DNA of 64,000 nt, taken from NCBI GenBank assembly GCA_002798175.1, contig NWQL01000005.1:260127-324126 (forward strand). The letters run 5' to 3'. The stretch comes from Lysobacteraceae bacterium NML91-0213 (GTDB lineage: Bacteria > Pseudomonadota > Gammaproteobacteria > Xanthomonadales > Xanthomonadaceae). Of this stretch, positions 24,521 through 43,694 are shown in pieces. The notes under the pieces are model-generated. The model made no database searches. It had not been told where the DNA came from and worked only from the letters and a program-made list of their open reading frames with translations. Positions within the stretch are counted from its first letter, which is position 1. Each line of letters starts with the position of its first letter. A program made the position numbers and the translations under genes.

Positions 24521-24644
24521 GCGGCCTGGTCCGCGGCGGTCTGATTGCGGGGCGGGCGTTGGACGCGTTGGCGGGTCTGCGAGGGCTTCGGGCGATGGCG
24601 ATGTAGTAGTCCTGCGTCGGTGAGCGGCTTTGTTGTGTCGCGCT

Positions 24645-24762
24645 GCCCGTCGCGCGCACCGGGGGGTGTGCTCCCCCGGCCGGAGTCCGCGTCCAGCTAC
24701 CACGGCCGGCCGCCGGCCATCCATGGCCGGCTGTCCGCACACCCCCGGTGCACGCGACGGGC
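24645..24762. repeat. palindromic repeat, arm A of composite element copy 1
   Basis: A 118 bp near-palindrome whose ends are a perfect 10 bp inverted repeat (GCCCGTCGCG at 24645-24654 and its complement at 24753-24762), extended by a further run of G against C. The core contains GGCCATCCATGGCC. A second copy lies at 43143-43262 with over 90 % identity by eye, and arm B downstream is an inverted relative. Confidence 0.9.
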
Positions 24763-24984
24763 TCGGGCATCCGCCGGCTTCGGAATGGAACGTCAGCAGC
24801 GGTGCCGCTGACGGCGTCGTGCACGGGCGGCGGGCGGCGCACCTGCCTGTCCGGGTGCAACCGACCACGCTCGCGCGGCCCGGGTCCGGCATCGAGATCG
24901 GAGCGGCTCGTTGGAGTCACCGGTTGTCGCAACGGCATGCCGGTATTTGCCGTTGGCCTTCTCCCCGACGCGACGACAGTCGGA
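24763..24984. repeat. linker of composite element copy 1
   Basis: About 222 bp between arms A and B. Parts (around 24862-24984) are recognisably related to the linker of copy 2 (about 43320-43445): both hold ACCACGCTCG, then ATCGAGATCG- or ATGGAGATCG-like text and CCGTTG.CCTTCT. No protein is convincingly coded. Confidence 0.6.
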
Positions 24985-25098
24985 GCCCGCCGCGGACGCA
25001 GGGGGATGTCCAGAGCCGGCCATGGATGGCCGGCGGCCGGATGTGGGAGCAGGACGCGGAGATATCCGGCTGGGCATCCCCCTGTGGCCGCGGTGGGC
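24985..25098. repeat. palindromic repeat, arm B of composite element copy 1
   Basis: A 114 bp near-palindrome with 11 bp terminal inverted repeats (one mismatch; 24985-24995 with 25088-25098). Its core is the reverse complement of the core of arm A, so A and B are inverted copies of one element. The twin in copy 2 is at 43446-43558. Confidence 0.9.
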
Positions 25099-25148
25099 AG
25101 CCGCGCCAGTGCCGCCCGTCCTGCAGCCGGGCAGGAACGACCGTGCGC

Positions 25149-43060: not shown

Positions 43061-43142
43061 GGGGGACGTGGCCGGGTTCCGGGTTCCGGGGAGCGGTGTC
43101 GGACCGGGAGGCGGAAGGCCGGCTCCGTCGTGAGTTCGCGCC

Positions 43143-43262
43143 GCCCGTCGCGCGCACCGGGGGGTGTGCTCCCCCGGCCGGAGTCCGCATCCAGCTACCA
43201 CGGCCGGCCGCCGGCCATCCATGGCCGGCTGGGAGCACACCCCCCCGGTGCACGCGGCGGGC
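43143..43262. repeat. palindromic repeat, arm A of composite element copy 2
   Basis: A 120 bp near-palindrome that is over 90 % identical by eye to 24645-24762. Ends are a 10 bp inverted repeat with one mismatch (43143-43152 and 43253-43262). The core GGCCATCCATGGCC is shared. Confidence 0.9.
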
Positions 43263-43445
43263 TCCGACGTTCGTTGGCTTCGGCACATGGGAACAGGAGC
43301 GGGCGGCTGAGGGCCGCGCGACCACGCTCGAGCCCGTCGGGCTGGCATGGAGATCGACAGCGGCGGCAGCCGAAGTCGTCAATCGCCACGACGGCCTGTT
43401 GTTCTCTGGCCGTTGACCTTCTTCCGGACGCCACGCCAGGTCCGA
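43263..43445. repeat. linker of composite element copy 2
   Basis: About 183 bp joining arms A and B. It is partly related to the linker at 24763-24984, more so near arm B. No plausible gene. Confidence 0.55.
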
Positions 43446-43558
43446 GCCCGCCGCGGACGCAGGGGAATGTCCAGAGCCGGCCAGGGATGGCCGGCGACGG
43501 ATGTGGTAGCAGGACGCGAAGCCATCCGGCTGGGCACCCCCCTGTGGCCGTGGTGGGC
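43446..43558. repeat. palindromic repeat, arm B of composite element copy 2
   Basis: A 113 bp near-palindrome, twin of 24985-25098 and inverted relative of arm A. The terminal inverted repeats are 11 bp (43446-43456 with 43548-43558) with two mismatches. The remaining bases to 43694 hold no gene. Confidence 0.9.
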
Positions 43559-43694
43559 CACCCCGGATGCCGAGGGGCTCCCTCCGATCAGGAAGGACCG
43601 GGTGTGCGTCAGCGCGAGGACCGTGACATGGGCCAGCCTCGCCGCTTCGCACACGCTTCCGCCCGGGTATCCATCGCCTCGCGGGCGCGCTTCT

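Follow-up and report, generated by a model that had tools for sequence, protein, structure and literature searches.

The intergenic composite at positions 24645-25098 of the window, the 64,000-nucleotide stretch of DNA of Lysobacteraceae bacterium NML91-0213 (genome G000 hereinafter) that was analysed, is probably the core of a non-autonomous miniature transposable element (MITE) with ISL3-type ends that is targeted to the T-tracts of terminators. This assignment is well supported for the family as a whole and would extend to the decayed copies in the window. Two palindromes of ~115 bp in each unit remain ~93% alike across dozens of copies that are otherwise nearly dissimilar, which is the main puzzle posed by these elements.

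Two inverted palindromes in the window

The composite was initially described as two near-palindromic arms, A (24645..24762, plus strand) and B (24985..25098, minus strand), with B the inverted relative of A, and both statements are borne out. The ends of A (24645-24665 and 24742-24762) form a stem of 21 nt with 95% pairing and those of B (24985-25013 and 25070-25098) one of 29 nt with 86% pairing, and B in inverted orientation matches A at 83% over 60 nt; the terminal repeats are longer than the 10-11 bp originally given. The suggestion that the arms form long hairpins holds as well: all four arms in the window fold far below shuffled sequence, with energies 5.5 to 10 SD under dinucleotide shuffles and, for each arm, none of 200 shuffles as good. 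Each arm consists of a long outer stem and two inner hairpins, that is, a three-way junction, denoted Y below.

Arm A of copy 1 scores 69.1 bits to model R1 (fold z -7.5) and arm B 64.5 bits (fold z -8.2). Both contain hairpin H1, located at 24712..24731 in A by family D1 and the fold, and at 25015..25034 in B by family D1, and they are separated by a linker of 222 nt (24763..24984). The Y-linker-Y core is shorter than the related mobile units, which extend ~80 bp further to the left and ~42 bp to the right. The full unit of copy 1 (MITE body) is estimated at 24573..25141, from a left segment model that matches 24573-24647 (E 4.8e-6) and, for the right end, from the usual 41-43 nt spacing in related copies.

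The twin composite reported in the preliminary description is present at 43143-43558, with A (43143..43262, plus strand; 56.4 bits, fold z -10.1) and B (43446..43558, minus strand; 47 bits, fold z -5.5) that are 94% and 91% identical, respectively, to their counterparts in copy 1, but the linker said to be related is not clearly so: the copy 2 linker (183 nt, 43263..43445) falls outside the five best linker matches of the 222-nt copy 1 linker. Its full unit is put at 43063..43599, where both ends are uncertain and the outer limits come from spacing elsewhere; the right segment, 43560-43596, matches below inclusion (E 0.04), and the left match, limited to 43121-43142, is not significant (E 0.14).

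Copy 1 lies between convergent genes, with a UPF0093 protein (PF03653) encoded on the left and a DUF2231 protein, followed by COX1, on the right; the CopD-like identity of the left gene is not borne out. No recognisable inverted-repeat ends, duplication or neighbouring terminator were found at window copies 1 and 2; the ISL3-type ends of these copies are decayed.

Copies in Luteimonas genomes

When the 454-bp composite was searched against G000 and its relatives, the check proposed at the outset, it gave 120 matches in its own genome, which amount to ~30 copies given that one match may represent a single arm or the same arm on the other strand, and matches in 26 of the 52 genomes of Luteimonas, the genus to which G000 belongs. 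Many long matches occur in eight of these (G000, G004, G008, G015, G021, G022, G040 and G051). Besides the window, 33 further loci of G000 were examined, and 84 complete A-linker-B units were extracted, 27 from G000, 33 from G021 and 24 from G051.

In 400 random pairs of these 84 units, with gaps counted, the mean identity is 0.926 for A and 0.939 for B, compared with 0.539 for the linker, 0.577 for the 80 bp left of A, 0.535 for the 42 bp right of B, and 0.513 and 0.515 for the background further out. Thus, within the unit, the Ys alone are kept, at ~93% against 54-58% elsewhere and a background of 51%. Matching sites in two species hold units that are scarcely closer than those at unrelated sites. 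For G000 and G021 (16 pairs), matching and unrelated units show identities of 0.948 and 0.932 in A, and of 0.615 and 0.529 in the linker with gaps; for G000 and G051 (13 pairs), the respective values are 0.925 and 0.926 in A, and 0.512 and 0.543 in the linker.

Empty and shared sites

For 35 loci of G000, the matching site is occupied in G021 in 26 cases, in G051 in 21 and in at least one of these two relatives in 31, which is what a fixed intergenic sequence, inherited and never mobile, would look like. Such an origin is nevertheless extremely improbable in view of the target duplications detailed below, the empty sites and the orientation of the elements at shared sites. Empty sites in close relatives, the evidence for mobility that had been called for, were found at both loci examined (L033 and L029), and in G021 as well as in G051; together with L010 and L041, these are the four loci with no partner in either relative. 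At L033, 559 bp separate the flanks in G000, compared with 7 bp in G021 and none in G051; a terminator directly precedes the empty site, and no clean duplication is visible at this locus. At L029, 125 bp in G021 correspond to 718 bp in G000, and 35 bp in G051 to 878 bp in G000, a stretch that includes an insertion-sequence remnant. Elements at shared sites are in opposite orientation in 14 of 67 comparisons (4 of 26 between G000 and G021, 7 of 21 between G000 and G051, and 3 of 20 between G021 and G051), and therefore some of the matching sites reflect repeated insertions or inversions. The site of window copy 1 is occupied in G021 and G051; at the 13 of 29 other loci where it was measurable, the core hairpin was found in none, and the genes are at most 27 bp apart in five.

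Ends, target duplications and terminators

The full unit of L. granuli and two relatives measures 488-630 bp where both ends are seen and is bounded by inverted repeats of the GGTTCTTCTCCC type. It contains no transposase gene, and the linkers are putatively non-coding, judging by their length and variability. The motif GGTTCTTCTCC, shared by the best-preserved unit ends and the insertion sequences of G000 described below, with at most two mismatches, is present at 36 ends, 34 of which are adjoined by an A or T tract. In L. granuli, 32 of 54 sides carry it (mean for permuted motifs 1.9, maximum 24); the corresponding counts are 10 of 56 in G000 (mean 1.7, maximum 7), 15 of 68 in G021 (mean 2.2, maximum 11) and, among further named species, 5 of 28 (mean 0.8, maximum 4), these five belonging to L. 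padinae, L. colneyensis and L. arsenica; the 6 of 48 sides in G051 do not exceed the control (mean 1.5, maximum 11).

Both ends were identified in 13 units, 11 from L. granuli and one each from L. padinae and L. colneyensis. The 8-mers flanking these units match at 5.92 of 8 positions, compared with 3.37 after shuffling, and none of 2000 shuffles was as good, with one base of shift permitted and with the caveat that flanks made of A-T tracts by themselves raise the duplication score. The flanking duplication is perfect at L107 and L143, and at L089 with a one-base shift. In the 12 units that show both ends under a slightly different search span, a hairpin with a T-tract abuts exactly one side in 10 and both sides in none, compared with 6 of 4000 random positions, which were not terminator-matched. 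Such one-sidedness is predicted by insertion into the T-tract of a terminator with duplication of the tract. The family is targeted to terminator T-tracts; all three features (ends, duplications and terminator targeting) are observed in the copies of L. granuli, L. padinae and L. colneyensis.

ISL3 insertion sequences and the candidate mover

The ISL3 transposase domain (PF01610, DDE_Tnp_ISL3) exceeds the cut-off in 18 of the 52 genomes of the genus. Four of the 11 ISL3 loci tested gave an end pair with a duplication, 8 of 8 bases at L330 and 7 of 8 at L332, L333 and L336, and seven ends of these four elements agree with the best unit end in 20-22 of 24 positions. The ends of the ISL3 elements are asymmetric (CCGGGG versus GAGGG), and so are those of the L. 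granuli units, with the CCGGGG type at 14 of 14 A-side ends and the GAGGGG type at 17 of 18 B-side ends, a rule that is followed by only one of the four ends in L. padinae and L. colneyensis. ISL3 elements of this genus carry ends matching those of the units. In a set of eight ISL3 copies (four of this type, four from G000), the duplications extend over 7 or 8 of 8 bases, and seven of the copies have a terminator hairpin on one side only; at L330 there is none.

The G000 insertion sequences start with GGTTCTTC and carry an ISL3-type C-terminal fragment. These four copies (L011, L017, L029 and L344), with ends GGTTCTTCGCGG, lie in terminator T-tracts between identical 8-bp duplications, and their middle is an assembly gap of Ns. 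Three of them, those at L011, L017 and L029, adjoin Y units. Their ends match the unit ends at only 17 of 24 positions.

Among the eight copy-rich genomes, only G000, with fragments at assembly gaps, and G022 pass the PF01610 cut-off, and therefore most of these MITEs look orphaned at present. There is no PF01610 match at all in G004, G008 and G015, and no matching ends were found at the ISL3 loci of G022. None of nine ISL3 loci contains a Y, with two matches at chance level (E 0.11 and 0.78).

The preferred explanation, then, is that a unit of two inverted Y-shaped palindromes and a linker, held between ISL3-type terminal inverted repeats, would be cut at its GGTTCTTCTCCC-type ends by an ISL3-family DDE transposase supplied in trans. 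It would insert into the T-tract of an intrinsic terminator with duplication of ~8 bp, and the hairpin and T-tract kept on one side should leave the old terminator working. The retained terminator would make such sites harmless, which could explain the position of the units behind genes. The decayed copies in the window presumably arose in the same way. If this is true, the family lands in terminator T-tracts that its own duplication restores.

The preliminary description proposed a REPIN- or MITE-like unit spread by a transposase acting in trans. The MITE part of this proposal is supported by a repeated unit devoid of genes, its many copies, the two empty sites and the hairpin arms, but the REPIN part, under which two inverted palindromes would be recognised in single-stranded form and moved by a RAYT (Y1 HUH) transposase, is very improbable. 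An extragenic inverted doublet with a variable spacer and strongly conserved arms does resemble a REPIN, and a Y1_Tnp match, weak or better, was obtained in 5 of the 8 copy-rich genomes. However, the search for a RAYT (Y1 tyrosine) transposase that was suggested as a check found no Y1_Tnp domain (PF01797) in the other three (G004, G015 and G021) and no arm within the flanks of the 12 RAYT loci examined, one of them in G000, and on these grounds RAYT was rejected as the mover. The ~8 bp duplications and ISL3-type ends likewise argue against it, as do the size and fold of the arms, ~115-bp three-way junctions rather than short GTAG/CGTC hairpins.

Gene context

Genes were called by a simple codon-based method, which allowed 182 of the 200 Y clusters to be located relative to their neighbours; the overlap of these 182 with a called gene never exceeds 60 bp. 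These clusters lie between convergent genes in 86 cases, tandem genes in 84 and divergent genes in 12, compared with 75, 432 and 110, respectively, of the 617 remaining pairs of adjacent genes at these loci, counts that include matching sites of related species repeatedly. Ys that stand alone between genes of the same direction show no preferred orientation (14 sense, 13 antisense), which argues against a strand-specific RNA role.

Y palindromes beyond the MITE

The Ys are distributed far more widely than the units. A wider Y pattern was found in 92 stretches of GTDB genomes, and all 80 of those listed are from Lysobacterales. Of the 247 genomes and 54 genera of the family, 73 and 21, respectively, contain Ys according to a model search in which at most 14 candidates were scored per genome. 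In 26 Y sequences, chiefly from Luteimonas, Lysobacter, Pseudoxanthomonas and Thermomonas, 80.5% of the cells are paired, compared with 66.1% in shuffled and 31-44% in slid controls, double changes in pairs number 157 versus 61 after shuffling, and the covariation score is 0.320 versus 0.103 in the control. This covariation could equally come from DNA events that correct palindromes.

When two Ys are neighbours within 700 bp (n=145), their polarity is nearly fixed, with 134 Y(+)Y(-) pairs, 11 direct pairs and no Y(-)Y(+) pair; some of these loci overlap, and 130 distinct pairs are left after removal. A single Y is present at all 12 loci examined in G176. These (L360-L371) are Ys of one type with short conserved flanks, and a TCATTCCCGCGAAGGCGGGAATCC-like repeat is often next to them. 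A pair of the wider type is also present in G000 itself (L304, C11:133418-133864), where it scores above the A and B arms with the model.

In other genera, outside the MITE clade, no side of 13 Y pairs, ten named (L083, L087, L090, L111, L123, L125, L140, L141, L149 and L157) and three further ones, has an ISL3-type end within two mismatches, and for this reason the Y pair seems, as far as sequence can tell, to be older than the MITE.

Several other identities were considered for the Y. A known RNA was ruled out by the search of Rfam release 15 with the window and eight loci, in which there was no match at the gathering threshold and the best weak match, to xerDC, reached 20.1 bits against 72.5. 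Group IIC introns likewise favour terminators, and are covered here through Rfam only. Viral contigs, plasmids and phages yielded no Y in searches with one exact pattern and, by blastn, with the window unit. A gene between widely spaced Ys was considered as an autonomous element, and the predicted protein at L307 is, by eye, no transposase. No description of the Y was found in the open-access literature, a scope that leaves out most subscription papers.

Conservation of the palindromes

Conservation of the Ys inside decayed units needs either homogenisation between copies or selection. Homogenisation through the repair of breaks at palindromes is our preferred reading, albeit unproven, and gene conversion is clearly seen in one example. 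The DNA flanking L011 in G000 and L251 in G021 is 98.4-98.7% alike and identical right beside the unit, A is nearly identical and B identical, and yet the linkers, of 173 and 252 nt, are different. The relatives of the L251 linker (79-89%) are at L257, L268 and L267, also in G021. A new linker within arms that have not changed is most readily explained by non-allelic gene conversion.

Shared sites were also considered as proof of concerted evolution, and this was rejected: at the sites that L. granuli shares, the arms, at 0.892 (A) and 0.902 (B), are no closer than random cross pairs (0.898 and 0.918). By our own reading, 15 comparisons at these sites comprise 8 in the same and 7 in opposite orientation, so that independent insertion is equally likely.

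Alternatively, the Ys might be useful to the host, as RNA 3' ends, bidirectional terminators or DNA-protein sites, and be kept by selection, with the ISL3 ends serving as a vehicle. This reading, which addresses why the Ys stay rather than how they came, is possible, if on the whole somewhat unlikely. It fits arms that are ~93% identical while the rest is near background, the covariation of the Y stems, the fixed polarity of the pairs and the abundance of clusters between convergent genes (86 of 182 versus 75 of 617), but sits poorly with the even split of lone Ys between sense and antisense, with opposite orientations in 14 of 67 same-site comparisons and with copies worn down to one arm or to fragments.

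Returning to homogenisation, we tentatively propose, with considerable doubt, that the Y is an undescribed, family-wide class of three-way-junction palindromes of ~120 nt that spreads singly and as pairs of fixed polarity. One such pair would have been captured between ISL3 ends in a single Luteimonas clade, and the repair, from other copies, of breaks provoked at extruded Ys would homogenise the Ys and swap linkers while the rest decays, with L011/L251 as a trace of this process. Selection, gene conversion and template-switching during replication make differing predictions for resequenced strains.

Relationship to known elements

The closest likeness is to the ISL3 insertion sequences (PF01610). 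Their ends agree with those of the units in 20-22 of 24 bases and show the same asymmetry, A/T tracts are duplicated over 8 bp, and a terminator stands on one side; in contrast, the unit lacks a transposase gene and carries two Ys. The repeat RU-1 is the same as ERIC. As outlined in the report on this enterobacterial small mobile repeat (PMC2759123), it is 127 bp long and, like the Y, an intergenic palindrome of similar length with many copies, a likeness by description only; the Y differs from the RU-1 so outlined in having two inner hairpins and in forming an inverted pair inside ISL3-type ends. REPINs (PMC3116915) and GTAG/CGTC REPs (PMC3733652) are likewise inverted extragenic doublets with conserved arms and variable spacers, often between convergent or co-directional genes. 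REPs are given there as 20-40 bp with a GTAG or CGTC tag (PMC3733652), whereas the unit has ~115 bp arms that form three-way junctions, no RAYT link, ISL3-type ends and ~8 bp duplications. BrickBuilt of Porphyromonas gingivalis (PMC4596501), as summarised in its report, is similarly an intergenic MITE with internal repeats, and terminators and/or polyadenylation sites flank 10 of its 19 instances; unlike the unit, it carries minisatellite cargo, and its duplications vary in length and sequence between copies.

Variant copies and their distribution

Several copies consist of a single arm or of fragments. At L038, L040 and L028 of G000, short forms consist of the left portion of A joined to the right portion of B, as would result from deletion of the span between two matching points of the Ys. 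At L022 of G000 (1172-2429), two B arms surround ~1 kb of DNA that is richer in AT and may encode a secreted protein; the same site holds an ordinary Y pair in the other element-bearing relatives. The G021 unit that matches window copy 1 (L265) has a tandem repeat of ~23 bp, of the CCGGTTCCAGTCGAAACCGACCG type, directly to its right. On the chromosomes of G021 and G051, which share sites, copies seem denser near the contig start, and in G021, by our own count, 28 of 40 loci lie within 0-0.8 or 2.4-3.2 Mb.
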